From Chloroflexota bacterium (GTDB taxonomy: Bacteria; Chloroflexota; UBA11872): a stretch of DNA of 64,000 bases. The DNA is taken from the NCBI GenBank assembly GCA_026706485.1, contig JAPOYR010000004.1, positions 186,001 to 250,000 of the forward strand, in the 5' to 3' direction. Both the position numbers and the translations under genes were made by a program. This document shows positions 11,839-20,259 of the stretch, in pieces (the stretch's first letter is position 1; the number at the start of each line of letters is the position of its first letter). The notes beneath the pieces are model-generated. The model had not been told where the DNA came from. It ran no database searches and saw nothing but the letters and a program-made list of their open reading frames with translations.

Positions 11839-12279
11839 CTAGCGGCGACCTCCCAGCGGCACGTCTCGGCCCTCGTCCAGGTCCAGCCGGTCGAAGTGCC
11901 GCGTCACGTCGGTGCGATGTCCGTGGCCGATGTTATCCAGGAACTCGCGGTACCAGGCCTCCCACTCCGGCGTCGGCGGCCCGCGAGTCATCATCATTTC
12001 GTTCCAGGCGGCGATCTCGTCGTCCGACCGCTCGGTCATGTTGGCCTGGACCCACGCCAGCATCTCGGCGTCGGTGGCGTTCGCTGCCACCGCGGTGTGA
12101 AAGTCGTCGACCTCGATGCCCAGGAACTCGAACAGTTCGACGGAAAACCCGTGCCGCGACAGGTATTCGCCCAGGGCGCCGGCCGCATCGGCGCGGGCCT
12201 TGTCGATGGCGCGCGGCAAGAACACGATGCCGCCCAGCGAGGCATAGGGACTGCGCGGCACGTCACGCGTGAGGTCCAT
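11839..12279 (-). CDS. DUF5069-like protein, copy 1
   Basis: 146 residues, soluble, no signal peptide. It opens with MDLTRDVPRSPYASLGGI and has the segment FLPRAIDKARAD, typical of DUF5069 proteins of unknown function. Its C-terminus reads HRTDVTRHFDRLDLDEGRD, nearly identical to that of the copy at 43469-43924, so the two are paralogues and probably bind or modify the same kind of ligand. No catalytic residues can be named. Confidence 0.85.
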   Translation of the reverse strand: MDLTRDVPRSPYASLGGIVFLPRAIDKARADAAGALGEYLSRHGFSVELFEFLGIEVDDFHTAVAANATDAEMLAWVQANMTERSDDEIAAWNEMMMTRGPPTPEWEAWYREFLDNIGHGHRTDVTRHFDRLDLDEGRDVPLGGRR

Positions 12280-12336
12280 GGGGTGGTCTCCGAATCGGGT
12301 ATTGGGCAGGAGTGTAGGCGGTGAACGCCCCCCTCC

Positions 12337-12364
12337 GTCATTCCGGCGAAGGCCGGAATCCAGG
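12337..12364. repeat. Short dispersed palindrome (GTCATTCC family)
   Basis: ATTCCGGC and GCCGGAAT form a perfect 8-base stem with a GAAG loop, flanked by GTC and CC. A closely related unit is at 53424-53450. This is a common type of repeat between genes in many bacteria. It lies upstream of the DUF5069 gene and beyond the end of the AbrB-like gene. Confidence 0.75.
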
Positions 12365-12388
12365 ATCCGCTGTCAACCGGCGCTGGAC

Positions 12389-12622
12389 CTACCGATCCGT
12401 CGCACCGTCGACGACGGCCTGCTGCATGTCGTCCAGCGTCACCGGCGGACCATCGTGGCTGAGCACGCCGTAGAGATGTTGGATTGGACGCACGGCACGG
12501 ATGCGCACCTCGCCATCCACAACGAAATAGCGCACGCGGTCTCCTGGTCCAACGCCCAGGGCTTCCCGAACTGCCTTCGGCAAGGTGGTCCGCCCCGTGG
12601 ATGAAATGCCTGATTCCGGCAT
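12389..12622 (-). CDS. AbrB/SpoVT-type (MazE/VapB-like) DNA-binding protein
   Basis: 77 residues from the ATG at 12622; an in-frame ATG at 12643 would add seven residues and overlap the upstream gene. The swapped-hairpin AbrB domain is clear: STGRTTLPKAVREALGV then GDRVRYFV. The C-terminus LDDMQQAVVDGA resembles the toxin-binding tail of VapB/MazE antitoxins. No toxin gene adjoins it. It follows the HSDR_N-RAMA gene by 10 bases and is probably co-transcribed, so it may regulate that gene or bind its DNA site. Confidence 0.85.
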   Translation of the reverse strand: MPESGISSTGRTTLPKAVREALGVGPGDRVRYFVVDGEVRIRAVRPIQHLYGVLSHDGPPVTLDDMQQAVVDGATDR

Positions 12623-12632
12623 GCGGCGGTGC

Positions 12633-13697
12633 TCACGACCCATCGGACCCGCCCCCAGACAAGTACCGCTGGCGCAAGACATCCATCTTCTTGACTTGGC
12701 CGTCGGAATCGGTGAATCGCCAAAAGTTCCAACCGTTAGCAGCAGGGCCCTTGCCGCGATAGCCGCCAGCAAGCCACACCGCATTTCCGGCAAGTGACAG
12801 CGACTGGAACACCCTTTCCTGAAACTTGATGCTGCCGTCGGTTTCTATCCGCGCCGTGTAGGCCTGTCCGCGATACCTACTCTGCAATTCGAGCGGCGGC
12901 TGAATGATCCCCTCAGCAATGAGGTGCCGAACTCGAACGAGTCGCGAAGTTACACGATTCGGCTGCGCGTCCACTGGCTTCGGCTTGGGTTTCGGCTCAG
13001 GCTCGGGATCGGGCACGCCGCCGTGCACCAGCGGAAACTCGAAGTGCGCCCGCACCCGACGCAGACTTGAAGCCACATCCTCATCCGTCAGTTCGGCCTC
13101 GCCCTCTCTCAGCAAGCGCACGAAGGATTCATCCGGCACGCGGCCGAACAGCCTATTCAGCGCCTTGTGCACCTGCCGGTCAACGAATTGCGCGCGCCAC
13201 TGTGCCTTCAGCCGGTCCTTGGGTCGCCCGCTGCGGGATAGCAAATCGAGAACCTCACTGACGCTGTGGTTGTCATCAGTCACCCGAACGGCATGAAAGA
13301 GCTTCTCGCTCACCGGAACGGGCGCGTGGGTGTTATAGATGCGGTAGTCGTTGCCGTCGGTCAGCACGACCCATTCCACGCCCGCCATGGTGGCGTAGCT
13401 CACGATCTGGCTTGCCCACTTTTGATCGCCCAAGTTCTTGCCCAGCGCCTTGGCCTCCACGAAGAGGCTCGGCTTTCCAGCCTCCATCAGTGCATAGTCA
13501 ACTCGGCTGTCGGAGCCTTGGAAACCGTATTCCTGCCGAACTTGCTCAAGGTCCCCGACGCGCCAGCCAAGAGCGTTGAGCAATGGGTTGATCAGGCTGG
13601 CTCTGGTTTCCATTTCGGTGATGCCCATTCCCTCATAGCGCTCGATGAGCTCGCGAATGTTCGGCAACACATCCCGCACAGCGCTCACGATGAACAA
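12633..13697 (-). CDS. Stand-alone HSDR_N nuclease-like domain fused to a RAMA domain
   Basis: 354 residues. Residues about 1-160 match the N-terminal nuclease domain of type I restriction subunit HsdR: ETRASLINPLLNALGW at about 30-45, D67 in RVDYAL and E81-A-K83, together a PD-(D/E)xK site. A Pro/Lys/Glu-rich linker spans about 229-243. Residues about 253-346 match the RAMA domain (restriction enzyme adenine methylase associated), including NGWNFWRF and LRQRYL. There is no helicase, methylase or specificity gene nearby. The likely role is cutting or sensing DNA in a modification-dependent way, possibly anti-phage; this is inferred from domains only. Confidence 0.82.
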   Translation of the reverse strand: MFIVSAVRDVLPNIRELIERYEGMGITEMETRASLINPLLNALGWRVGDLEQVRQEYGFQGSDSRVDYALMEAGKPSLFVEAKALGKNLGDQKWASQIVSYATMAGVEWVVLTDGNDYRIYNTHAPVPVSEKLFHAVRVTDDNHSVSEVLDLLSRSGRPKDRLKAQWRAQFVDRQVHKALNRLFGRVPDESFVRLLREGEAELTDEDVASSLRRVRAHFEFPLVHGGVPDPEPEPKPKPKPVDAQPNRVTSRLVRVRHLIAEGIIQPPLELQSRYRGQAYTARIETDGSIKFQERVFQSLSLAGNAVWLAGGYRGKGPAANGWNFWRFTDSDGQVKKMDVLRQRYLSGGGSDGS

Positions 13698-13751: not shown

Positions 13752-14504
13752 CTACCCAAACCGCCTCGCCAGCGTCCGGTAGAGCCCTGGCCACACCCCG
13801 TGGAGCCAGATGGGGAGTCGCAGCCAGCCGGGCACGACGACCTCGTCGCGTTCGCGCTCGATGGCGCGCACGATGGCCTCGGCCACGCGCTCCGGCGGGA
13901 TGGGTCGGGGGCGGCGGCGGCGAAACGGGCTGCCGCGCCGCGCGAAGAACTCCGTGTCCACGACGCCGGGCGACACGGTTGACACCCGCACACCGGATTG
14001 CTGGACCTCGTAGCGCAGGCCCTCGCTGAACGCGAGCAGGGCGGCCTTGGTGGCGGCGTAGAGCGCCTCGTCGCGGACGCCCACGTGCCCTGCGATCGAC
14101 GCGACGTTCACGATGTGGCCGCGCCCGCGCTCCAGCATGGACGGCAGCAGCGCGCGCGTGAGCCGCACCGCGCCCAGCAGGTTCACCGCCGCCAAGTCGT
14201 CGATCTTGTCGGGCGGCATCGCGGCGAACGGTCCTTCCCAGCCGATGCCGGCGTTGTTGACAAGGATGTCCACCGGCGCGGGTTCCCCCAACGCCGCCGC
14301 GGCCAGCTGCTCGATGTCCGCCGGGTCCGCCAGGTCCGCGGCTACGGCCGTGCCGCCGGTGGCATCGCGGATCGCGGCAAGCGCCTGGGGATCGCGCCCC
14401 GTGGCGATCACGCGCGCACCGGCCCGCGCCAGGGCAATGGCCGTCGCGCGGCCGATACCTGCCGTGGCGCCCGTCACCAAGGCCGTCGATCCGCGAATAT
14501 TCAT
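13752..14504 (-). CDS. Short-chain dehydrogenase/reductase
   Basis: 250 residues from the ATG at 14504, which directly precedes the Rossmann strand; a longer open frame upstream is arginine-rich and runs through a repeat, so it was not used. Cofactor motif TGATAGIG, NNAG in LVNNAGIG, and the catalytic Y-A-A-T-K tetrad element are all present. The C-terminal RRRRPRPIPPERVAEAIVRAI segment is that of classical SDRs annotated as ketoacyl reductase-like or DltE-type. The substrate is unknown. Confidence 0.92.
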   Translation of the reverse strand: MNIRGSTALVTGATAGIGRATAIALARAGARVIATGRDPQALAAIRDATGGTAVAADLADPADIEQLAAAALGEPAPVDILVNNAGIGWEGPFAAMPPDKIDDLAAVNLLGAVRLTRALLPSMLERGRGHIVNVASIAGHVGVRDEALYAATKAALLAFSEGLRYEVQQSGVRVSTVSPGVVDTEFFARRGSPFRRRRPRPIPPERVAEAIVRAIERERDEVVVPGWLRLPIWLHGVWPGLYRTLARRFG

Positions 14505-17328: not shown

Positions 17329-20259
17329 TCAGCCACCCTCGCAGAACGGCAAGTTGAGCCTGAAAAGATCGTTGTCCGCCACATCTCGCAACCCCTGCGG
17401 GATGCACCCCGTGACCGAGATTCCCGCGAGCCGAAGCAGTTTGAGGTTGTTCAGCCGACCCAGCTCGGGTGGGAGCTCGCCGCTCAACGGGTTGTCTCGG
17501 AGGAGCAAAGCCTCAAGGGCGGCGAGGCGACCGAACTCGGCCGGGATCGGGCCGGTGAGTCGGTTCCCGTGGAGGTCGAGCCGTTCCAGGCTTTCCAGGT
17601 TGCCCAGCTGAGCTGGAACCGTCCCGGTCAACTGGTTGCCGGGGAGTTCCAGCCGTTCGAGATTGTGGAGCTGGCCCAGCGCCGGTGGGATCTCGCCCCG
17701 CAACTGGTTGGAACTGAGCTTCAGCACCTCCAGATTGATGAGGTTCGCCAGTGCCGGCGGAATTGCCCCACTGAGCTGGTTCTCATGGAGCATCAAGGTC
17801 TTCAGGTTGGCCAGGCGGCCCAGCGCCGGTGGGATCTCACCCCGCAATTGGTTGTGACCGAGTTCCAGCTTGGTCAGATTGGCGAGGCGGCTCAGCTCGG
17901 GCGGAATCTCACCAGTCAGCTGGTTGTCGGTGAGGTGGAGGGCGGCCAGATTGGAAAGGCTCCCCAGCTCTGGCGGAATCTCACCCCGCAGGTGGTTGTA
18001 GTCGAGCCCAAGCACGGACAGATTCGCGAGCCTCGCCAGCTCGGGCGGAATGCGCCCCGTGAGCCGGTTGTGCATGACCAACAGTTGCTCCAAGCCGGCC
18101 AGCCGGCTGAGCGCGGGCGGAATCGGTCCCTCCAATTGGTTCGAATAGAGCCGAAGTCCTTTCAGGTTGGAGAGCTCGCCCAATTCGGCGGGGATCGTCC
18201 CACTGAGCTGGTTTGCACTGAGCACAAGCTGTTCCACGTTGGTCAGGCGGCCAAGCGCCGGCGGAATCGCGCCGCTCAACTGGTTCCCGTGGAGCTGCAG
18301 ATGCGCCAGGTTCGAAAGGTTGCCTAGTTCAGGCGGGATCGTCCCGCTGAGCCGACAGCGCCGCAGCGAAAGCCACCGAAGATTGGAAAGGCCGCCAAGC
18401 TCAGGCGGGATCGGCCCGTGCAGCTGGTTGTCGCCCAATCCGAGCCATTCCAGGTTGGCGAGACCACCCAAGGCTCGCGGGATCGCACCAGTGAGTTGGT
18501 TATCTTCCAGGTTGAGCTTGCTGAGATTGGCGAGACGGCCGAGCGCCGGTGGAATCTCGCCGGCCAGGTGGTTGGAAGAGAGTTCCAGCACCTTCAAGTT
18601 GGCGAGACTTGCCAACTCCGGAGGAATTGTGCCGCTGAGTTGGTTGTCGCCCAGCAGCAACCGTTCCAAATTGGCTAGGCGGCTCAGCGCCGGCGGAATT
18701 GCGCCGTTCAACTGGTTCCCTTCGAGCCCGAGCCATTTGAGATTGGCAAGCTGGCCCAACTCGGGCGGGATCGCTCCAGTCAACCGGTTGTTTCGGAGCC
18801 CCAGAAACTCGAGGGTGGCAAGCCGGCCCAGCGCAGGCGGGATCGTCCCGCTGAGCTGGTTCTCATGCAGCCCCAACCAGTCGACACTGGCGAGGAGGCC
18901 CAACTGCGGAGGTATCGCTCCCCGCAACCGGTTGTGCTCGAGCCCCAGCGTTCTCACGTTGGTGAGACCGCCCAGCGCGGGTGGGACTTCTCCGCTCAAC
19001 TGGTTGTGATGGATCCAAAGGTGCTCCAGGAGTGCAAGGCGCCCCAGCTCCGGTGGAATCGCGCCACTCAACTGGTTGGTATTGACGTCGAGCTGGGTGA
19101 GGCTGGCGAGGTAGCCAAATTCGGGTGGGATCGCGCCCCGCAGCTGGTTGTGACTGAGCGTCAACCGGCGCAGCTTGCCGAGGAAGCCCAATGCGGGCGG
19201 GATGGTCCCGCGCAACCGGTTGTCGTGCAAGTGCAACTCGATGACCTGCTCGAACTCGTCCGCCATGACGCCATGCCAATCATTGAGCGGCCGCTCGCTC
19301 AGCCAGTTGGCGTTGTTGGCCCAGTTTGGTCCGTCGGTGGCGTGGTAGAGCCGGATTAGCGCTTCCCGGTCGGACGCCGGCGGGAGCGGCAGCGACGGAG
19401 GCGGCGCCGGCGTTGACACAGGTGTGGGTTCCGGAGGTGGCGCGGTCGTGGGCAGCGCGAACACGGGAAGTCCGGCGATCTCGTGCTGTACAACGGGCGC
19501 CTTCGCCGCGTCCGGGATGATCACGTTGCTCAGCCGCTTCACCTTGTCCGGCACGTTCTGCAGGTTCGCGCGCCCAACGGTCGTTCCCGGCGCGGGCACG
19601 TTCCAGATCACGAACACCGTCCGCTGCGCTCGCAACATCTGCAGGCCCTGGGGATGGCCGTTGACTTCCCGCTCCTCGTAGCGGATTGGCAGGCCGTAGA
19701 GATTGAGCCAGTCGGGCTCGCTCAGGAACCGGTCTTTCATGGCCGCGTTTTGGTCCAGCAGCACCAGGTGGTTCTTGGTGATCGTGGCGAAGTCGGCGCC
19801 CTGATCGGCCTCCAGTACCTGGTGGGGCGGGACGTTGGGCAGCTCGACGTCGGGATAGCGATTCGCCAGCACGTCGAGCGTGTTGTAGTAGTTCATCCGA
19901 CCTTTGCCGGGATCCCATTGCAGGATCACCTTCTGGAAGGCCTGCAAGGTGAACGGGCCGCGCGCCCAGCGCTGGCTGACGGGATAGCCGATGGCCTGCA
20001 GGTCGCGCTCTCGGACGAAGTCCCAGAGCGGCACGCCGCCGGCATTGGTGACGGCGAAACCGTCGTTGGGATCAGCCGTATCGCCGCCGGTGATGGTGAA
20101 AAGGCAGCCGTCGTCGAGGGGGACGCCCTCGCACTCCAGCGCCGCCGCCGACGGCCAAACGGTCAGCGCGGCCGCGGCGACGATGGCCAGCACCGCCGGC
20201 GCCACGCGCAGGCGGCGCCAGGGTTCACGCCGGTGGAGCTGTGGCATGGCGATCGTCAC
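17329..20259 (-). CDS. Secreted protein with about 25 plant-type leucine-rich repeats
   Basis: 976 residues. A basic N-terminus and hydrophobic core at about 20-40 form a signal peptide. Residues about 40-265 include GGVPLWDFVRERDLQAIGYP and LQAFQKVILQWDPGKGRM, resembling a domain common in secreted Chloroflexota proteins. A proline-rich linker (about 270-290) leads to an N-terminal LRR cap (DREALIRLYHATDGPNW), then about 25 tandem 24-residue repeats of the form LxxLxLxxNxLxGxIPxxLGxLxN and a cysteine-containing cap at the C-terminus. The LxGxIP signature is that of the plant-specific LRR class. A binding or adhesion role at the cell surface is likely. The repeats are also visible as 72-base periodicity in the DNA. 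Confidence 0.93.
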   Translation of the reverse strand: MTIAMPQLHRREPWRRLRVAPAVLAIVAAAALTVWPSAAALECEGVPLDDGCLFTITGGDTADPNDGFAVTNAGGVPLWDFVRERDLQAIGYPVSQRWARGPFTLQAFQKVILQWDPGKGRMNYYNTLDVLANRYPDVELPNVPPHQVLEADQGADFATITKNHLVLLDQNAAMKDRFLSEPDWLNLYGLPIRYEEREVNGHPQGLQMLRAQRTVFVIWNVPAPGTTVGRANLQNVPDKVKRLSNVIIPDAAKAPVVQHEIAGLPVFALPTTAPPPEPTPVSTPAPPPSLPLPPASDREALIRLYHATDGPNWANNANWLSERPLNDWHGVMADEFEQVIELHLHDNRLRGTIPPALGFLGKLRRLTLSHNQLRGAIPPEFGYLASLTQLDVNTNQLSGAIPPELGRLALLEHLWIHHNQLSGEVPPALGGLTNVRTLGLEHNRLRGAIPPQLGLLASVDWLGLHENQLSGTIPPALGRLATLEFLGLRNNRLTGAIPPELGQLANLKWLGLEGNQLNGAIPPALSRLANLERLLLGDNQLSGTIPPELASLANLKVLELSSNHLAGEIPPALGRLANLSKLNLEDNQLTGAIPRALGGLANLEWLGLGDNQLHGPIPPELGGLSNLRWLSLRRCRLSGTIPPELGNLSNLAHLQLHGNQLSGAIPPALGRLTNVEQLVLSANQLSGTIPAELGELSNLKGLRLYSNQLEGPIPPALSRLAGLEQLLVMHNRLTGRIPPELARLANLSVLGLDYNHLRGEIPPELGSLSNLAALHLTDNQLTGEIPPELSRLANLTKLELGHNQLRGEIPPALGRLANLKTLMLHENQLSGAIPPALANLINLEVLKLSSNQLRGEIPPALGQLHNLERLELPGNQLTGTVPAQLGNLESLERLDLHGNRLTGPIPAEFGRLAALEALLLRDNPLSGELPPELGRLNNLKLLRLAGISVTGCIPQGLRDVADNDLFRLNLPFCEGG

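Follow-up and report, generated by a model that had tools for sequence, protein, structure and literature searches.

A stand-alone HSDR_N-RAMA protein of Chloroflexota, a candidate modification-sensing restriction nuclease, beside an orphaned antitoxin gene

The protein described here joins an HsdR-type nuclease domain (HSDR_N) to a RAMA domain and is encoded in a 64,000-nucleotide stretch of a Chloroflexota genome, referred to below as the window. Judged from its sequence and that of its relatives, it is a real and well-conserved protein, one variant among stand-alone nucleases that carry a reader domain. The preferred reading, to which a probability of about 0.5 is assigned, is that it is a stand-alone, horizontally exchanged, type-IV-like restriction nuclease in which RAMA selects the DNA and the action is type-IV-like on some mark. 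The RAMA domain would bind DNA and decide which DNA is held, and the HsdR-type PD-(D/E)xK domain, carried on a flexible linker, would then cut it without ATP-driven translocation or a partner methylase; DNA cleavage, selectivity and an anti-phage role are properties that we infer for the nuclease. The estimate is held at this level, and rival explanations are kept, because RAMA is the sole DNA-selecting part in sight, the solved RAMA domains come without proven mark reading, and carrier genomes are not depleted of methylases.

The gene lies on the minus strand as an intact open reading frame that, from a TTG start, spans positions 12633-13697 and encodes 354 amino acids. Alignment of the start region (VSAVRDVLP in the window and in the relative L033, MSAVRDVLP in the relative L034) suggests that the true start is the GTG at 13688, which gives 351 residues, the TTG at 13697 adding three (Table 1). 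The Pfam matches of the protein all exceed the curated cut-offs (HSDR_N, 1.6e-9; HSDR_N_2, 4.3e-8; RAMA, 2.7e-17), with the RAMA family (PF18755) scoring 63.1 bits against a cut-off of 35.2, and no further domain was found above the Pfam cut-off. It does not classify as a type I HsdR subunit, as the SF2 helicase motor is absent by Pfam and HsdM and HsdS partners are absent from the flanks. The earlier note, made from the window alone, had described HSDR_N fused to RAMA without a helicase, methylase or specificity part, and the Pfam domains and flanking genes agree with this description. The catalytic residues that it named, D67, E81 and K83 in TTG numbering, are D64, E78 and K80 in GTG numbering; their retention in 37 of 37 full-length family members speaks for its picture of a compact predicted nuclease working without helicase or methylase, and the loss of these residues in most relatives, which the note had set as a refuting outcome, was not observed. 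Two points bear on a type IV assignment, namely that the predicted active site is intact throughout the family and that no cognate methylase or specificity gene occurs in the window flanks. Whole-protein relatives in other genomes, at identities of 71%, 57% and about 41-47%, place the arrangement of the two predicted domains far beyond chance.

Table 1. Features of the nuclease locus in window positions, with residues numbered from the GTG start.
Feature	Position	Strand	Basis and remarks
HSDR_N-RAMA nuclease gene	12633..13688	-	351 aa from conserved GTG; intact reading frame, Pfam, relatives
Predicted PD-(D/E)xK (HSDR_N) nuclease domain	13056..13688	-	Residues 1-211; Pfam, invariance, fold match
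Predicted catalytic residues	D64 13497-13499; E78-A-K80 13449-13457	-	Followed by Q94 and Y98; all invariant in 37/37
Pro/Glu/Lys-rich linker	12945..13055	-	Residues 212-248; pLDDT under 50 at 236-244
RAMA domain	12651..12944	-	Residues 249-346; G319-W320, F322-W323 and R339 invariant in 37/37; Pfam, fold match
AbrB/MazE-like (VapB-type) antitoxin gene	12389..12622	-	77 aa; MazE_antitoxin 3e-10 (Pfam); without adjacent toxin
Short-chain dehydrogenase (SDR) gene	13752..14504	-	Upstream edge of presence/absence site; Pfam, synteny
DUF5069 gene	11839..12279	-	Conserved block beyond AbrB; Pfam, synteny

The domain assignment also held in a structure model built from 35 sequences (pLDDT 89.6, pTM 0.60), in which both domains match known folds. 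The modelled RAMA half resembles MPND (Z 13.3, rmsd 1.6 over 88 residues) and CcrM (Z 12.3, rmsd 2.3 over 88 residues), and the modelled nuclease half resembles DrdV (Z 12.1, rmsd 2.9 over 132 residues), HsdR 3h1t (Z 11.9, rmsd 3.3 over 123 residues) and BpuSI (Z 11.8, rmsd 3.7 over 148 residues). Because the linker is modelled with low confidence, the relative placing of the two domains is uncertain. The HsdR N-terminal nuclease, BpuSI and DrdV share with the window protein the HSDR_N assignment by Pfam, the fold, and the pattern formed by D64, E78, K80, Q94 and Y98, which we take to be the D...E-x-K and QxxxY motifs; unlike them, the window protein has no helicase or translocase, methylase or specificity part. 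Its RAMA domain matches those of CcrM and MPND by Pfam and fold but is attached to a nuclease, while the solved RAMA domains bind DNA without proven reading of a modification. BFVD gave a single match under 0.001, to a phage protein whose name refers to HSDR_N; the alignment spans 298 columns at an rmsd of 26.7, which leaves it uncertain whether both domains are shared.

The family examined comprises 37 distinct full-length two-domain proteins, the window protein included, gathered by a phylum search and by genome and viral scans; their record titles name Chloroflexota, Planctomycetota, Acidobacteriota, Actinomycetota, Nitrospiraceae, Rhodospirillales, one unplaced bacterium and two viral contigs. 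Relatives from named bacteria include L103 (Botrimarina hoheduenensis strain Pla111) and L102 (Planctomycetes bacterium Pla86). Matches in the phylum search came from 80 of 400 genomes, most rows covering the HSDR_N half only. Relatives that were cut by a contig end, interrupted or partial (L042, L045, L124-L129) were left out, as were second copies of the same contig and HSDR_N proteins that are more distant or without a full match (L046-L052, L130-L151, L154), among which L046 and L048 carry RAMA by Pfam. The 37/37 invariance refers to full-length members of this subfamily with both domains; besides the residues in Table 1, E25 is conserved in 36 of 37. Genome contigs searched with the single protein gave no relative, and a second, alignment-based scan of them did. 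The patterns of the genome-contig scan did not include the EAK motif; one of the two viral-scan patterns contained it, which biases the two viral members towards that motif. In phages and plasmids (3 and 14 records, respectively), matches were weak, incomplete and confined to the HSDR_N half.

Conservation differs between the two parts, mean identity over 666 pairs being 49% in the nuclease domain and 40% in RAMA. In a test of domain history, pairwise mean identities correlated at 0.70 for nuclease with nuclease, 0.44 for nuclease with RAMA and 0.53 for the RAMA halves, which suggests that the two domains have partly separate histories. The linker is where some relatives carry a second RAMA domain (L040) or an extra module of 110-120 amino acids ahead of RAMA (L043, L044). 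This module also occurs at L119:8742-9101 and L121:8742-9101, had no match in Pfam, the PDB or the viral contigs, and is 41-46% identical to part of two plasmid proteins annotated as GIY-YIG (L193, L194). Since Pfam at 1e-4 shows no GIY-YIG domain in these plasmid proteins, module swapping between nucleases is a lead only. The nuclease is the sole RAMA match in the genome that contains the window (G000), and RAMA above cut-off was found in 8 of 19 family genomes, one match each and always this nuclease (one genome, G308, being counted through a contig that is probably foreign, as discussed below). The window's genome also encodes a second HSDR_N protein of about 372 amino acids without RAMA (G000:C11:614435-614971; L002, L052), the C-terminal half of which is unmatched in Pfam.

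Composition and distribution give the nuclease the appearance of a foreign, mobile presence/absence gene. It lies in a G+C dip of the window, at 60.5% against about 69%, and its GC3 is 0.73 against a mean of 0.86 for 46 window genes delimited with a home-made gene caller; at the loci of two relatives, the nuclease has a G+C content of 53-54% against 66-67%. Its flanks in the window are housekeeping genes and not a defence island. Between 8.1 and 17.1 kb, Pfam identified MR/MLE, DUF5069 and short-chain dehydrogenase genes, inspection by eye added metallo-beta-lactamase-like, RDD-like, polyprenyl synthase and YvcK-like genes, and no helicase, methylase or specificity gene was found. Beyond this region, an open reading frame for 976 amino acids on the minus strand (17329-20259) contains many leucine-rich repeats (LxxNxLxGxIPxxLGxL) of plant-type look.

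Comparison of the window with L033 and L034 gave dS values of 0.80 and 1.49 for the nuclease, against 0.29-0.38 for the SDR and DUF5069 genes in the same pairs. The values for the 77-codon AbrB gene, 0.97 and 0.48, indicate that the exchanged stretch may sometimes include AbrB. In these two same-site allele comparisons the nuclease has a dN/dS of about 0.22, and dN is higher in RAMA than in the nuclease domain, at 0.27 versus 0.12 in the closer pair and 0.35 versus 0.29 in the other. This pattern of divergence is consistent with a functional gene that is maintained by exchange and whose putative DNA-selecting part changes faster.

A second insertion site, a small integration hotspot, is found in a sister genus: it separates a methyltransferase gene from a dehydrogenase gene and was compared across 11 genomes (L155-L165, L195). 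The nuclease occupies it in three of these, as such in G205 and in the three-module version in G229 and G157. DUF3800 is a defence-island gene, and four genomes have a DUF3800-type reading frame there (G308:C19, G077, G093 and G181, recognized by eye, with Pfam applied to G077 only, at 1.5e-16). One genome, G117, has an AAA ATPase (2.5e-10) with RloB (9.6e-21), both flanks being confirmed, and the remaining three contain no such gene, with gaps of 284 (G060), 78 (G173) and 468 bases (G280).

An association with defence genes, the absence of which the earlier note had counted against its reading, was found near several relatives. The neighbours submitted to Pfam, selected by eye, document that such genes occur and not how often. 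They include McrB/McrC (L037), AbiEi/AbiEii (L113), HsdR (L115), SIR2_2 with nSTAND1 (L112), DUF499 with HEPN_Swt1 (L107), a PLD-SNF2 protein (L118), a QueC-like protein (L120), and Gp49 and nucleotidyltransferase genes of toxin-antitoxin type (L104, L093). Viruses may carry the nuclease as well: on two IMG/VR contigs it neighbours Res and Mod of a type III restriction-modification system (L152) and an Eco57I-type methylase (L153), and a contig that looks prophage-like by eye holds it together with an N6_N4 methylase (L041). Matches to SIR2 near L039 and to a methylase near L038 fell below the Pfam cut-off, and neighbours of 794 and 328 amino acids in L038 had no Pfam match. Housekeeping settings were seen in L040, L100 and L114. 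With PADLOC at 1e-10, the 115 genes lying no more than two positions from the nuclease across 34 loci matched 123 families, of which 25 are listed, and 48 window genes matched 12; this comparison does not amount to a statistic but points the same way, towards a defence context, with a weak control drawn from one genome without taxon matching, a home-made gene caller, and some listed families that can be generic (helicases, and QueC-like proteins scoring as QatC). Phage-integrase genes made up four of the 115 neighbours.

A stand-alone nuclease without a translocase or linked methylase needs a way to spare its host. Amino-methylase genes occur in the loci of 4 of 34 members (L041, L112, L152, L153), with a weak match in L038, and a simple scan for C5-methylase motifs found none in 34 loci. 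The locus scan recovered nine of ten genome seeds, three further seeds being taken from loci, and covered only some methylase classes; 30 of 34 loci had no clear methylase in the sequence examined, five of them being under 7.5 kb. In the window's genome there were eight N6_N4_Mtase and six N6_Mtase matches, some of them fragments. Methylase depletion in carriers, considered as a sign of 6mA-dependence, was not seen: carriers have as many or more, with means for seven carriers and 11 non-carriers of 7.6 versus 4.4 for N6_N4_Mtase (p 0.10) and 5.0 versus 4.2 for N6_Mtase (p 0.64), G308 being left out. Because carriers are not depleted of amino-methylases, general reading of 6mA or 4mC is unlikely unless it is bound to a sequence context. 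A rare phage-type modification or a sequence-context modification is a more likely target for RAMA than general 6mA. Of the solved RAMA domains, that of CcrM is described as a nonspecific phosphate/DNA-backbone-binding domain whose structure with hemimethylated DNA is not different (PMC6787082), and binding by that of MPND as not raised by 6mA (PMC9963953). A 6mA preference of MPND was reported and then not confirmed, and mark reading by RAMA is disputed (PMC9963953, PMC11037411). The invariant RAMA residues of the window family include counterparts of the structural Gly331-Trp332 of CcrM, not a known base pocket.

The nonspecific binding described for the CcrM domain (PMC6787082) gives some weight to an explanation in which the protein is a sequence-specific type II or IIG-like nuclease, RAMA is a nonspecific clamp, and the host is saved by a methylase elsewhere or by tight repression. 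The nuclease half is near the type IIG enzymes DrdV and BpuSI as well as HsdR, the window's genome has many candidate protecting methylases, and the four loci named above have a DNA methylase in the vicinity; however, no methylase partner recurs in the sequence examined, Pfam knows no target-recognition domain in the protein, and a mobile nuclease with no methylase linked to it should be harmful to newly entered hosts, so that this explanation is judged unlikely. The variety of neighbouring defence genes could instead mean that the protein is an effector or auxiliary part joining defence-island systems (McrBC, restriction-modification, BREX-related DUF499), with RAMA as a general DNA tether. 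No single system recurs beside it in the loci inspected, and it is the sole inserted gene at two sites, which makes such a role rather improbable. The clean intergenic presence and absence between conserved flanks, with alleles more diverged than the flanks, would also be produced by a homing-type, self-spreading nuclease that cuts the empty allele and is copied in through recombination of the flanks, but the many unrelated sites across phyla, the replacement of the nuclease by defence-type genes at the second site, and closest nuclease folds that are restriction enzymes leave this idea with little credit.

The least credible of the alternatives, which pairs the nuclease with AbrB as its dedicated regulator or antidote in a two-gene unit, concerns the gene next door. 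The earlier note had placed an AbrB-like gene 10 bases downstream of the nuclease stop codon, which the sequence confirmed, and the same order and closeness recur in L033 and L034. Its further proposal, that AbrB is the nuclease's own regulator, did not survive comparison with other genomes. By tblastn, 3 of 37 members (those of the window, G125 and G308:C24) have AbrB as the nuclease's neighbour, all in one chromosomal block (SDR, nuclease, AbrB, DUF5069, MR/MLE), and no AbrB gene was found at the loci of the other 34; the search for the pair as a unit thus returned nothing independent of a single locus. The contig G308:C24 (L033, L092) is probably foreign, derived from the window's genus and lying inside a sister-genus assembly, since the polyprenyl-synthase-like gene of the window has a 94% copy on it and a 61% copy elsewhere in the assembly, for which a contamination of 8% is listed; it was counted with the window's lineage, as the third strain. 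In three sister genomes (G051, G101, G042) the order is SDR, AbrB, DUF5069 without the nuclease, with an SDR-AbrB spacing of about 100-130 bases. A PIN-domain gene (PF01850, 3.3e-17) directly follows AbrB in G042, at the same site as in the window, and in G117 two relatives of AbrB likewise stand ahead of PIN genes. AbrB relatives (E <= 1e-8) occur in 14 of 19 family genomes, against 8 of 19 for RAMA. These site comparisons identify AbrB as a resident VapB-type antitoxin, orphaned in the window, upstream of which the nuclease arrived. VapBC modules with an AbrB-type antitoxin thus resemble the relatives of the window gene, which stand directly before a PIN gene; the window's own AbrB differs in having none after it, and tblastn and blastn found no PIN gene or VapC remnant beyond chance in the window. 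Insertion of the nuclease would have left the resident antitoxin gene downstream of it, and the two may be co-transcribed. A 10-base gap can mislead, and comparison with the empty site distinguishes a true partner from an orphan antitoxin that is resident there. Downstream of AbrB (about 12300-12365) lies a REP-like palindromic element (TTCCGGC..CGCCGGAATGACGG-like), present in the same place in L033, L034 and L080; L034 and L081 have longer repeat-rich stretches where the window has this palindrome.

Beside known systems, the type-IV-like reading of the window protein finds its nearest likeness in COG2810 and COG4748, both presumably tied to HSDR_N, and in the winged-helix (wH) fusion endonucleases. 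The two COGs are stand-alone restriction nucleases and were compared by description; the excerpts of PMC5649159 and PMC8649781, which report COG2810 as enriched in sponge symbionts and COG4748 among the cargo of Tn7-like elements, describe no RAMA fusion. The wH fusions (PD-(D/E)XK-wH FcyTI and Psp4BI; PMC11037411) are likewise stand-alone nucleases with a DNA-reading domain, usually without a linked methylase (87% lack one within three genes; PMC11037411). Their reader is a wH domain tested on 6mA, whereas the window protein combines RAMA with an HsdR-type nuclease and is known from sequence and model, and the methylases of HSDR_N-RAMA carriers are hard to reconcile with a general 6mA target. 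The same paper names RAMA-Mrr-NTPase and GIY-YIG-RAMA fusions as future 6mA candidates (PMC11037411). The PADLOC candidate PDC-S14 matches the RAMA half (4.6e-15; residues 243-347 only, profile positions 177-273 of 280) and leaves the nuclease half unmatched. No description of the HSDR_N-RAMA fusion was found in the literature searched, and a RAMA source outside that search could describe it.

More broadly, and more tentatively than the reading of the single protein, HSDR_N-RAMA proteins could form a widespread class of single-gene restriction enzymes, with RAMA serving as a quickly evolving and exchangeable reader of a mark unlike the common methyl marks of hosts, and with the tandem-RAMA and extra-module versions extending the range of marks. 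As a small single-gene nuclease in which RAMA is the sole evident DNA-selecting part, the protein makes mark reading by RAMA directly testable by cutting assays, and if this broader reading is true, it would be the first nuclease-linked RAMA reader open to a direct test. If the nuclease works, it would be a restriction enzyme of a new, modification-sensing type that might serve as a tool, and it would belong to the immune arsenal of Chloroflexota, Planctomycetota and Acidobacteriota.
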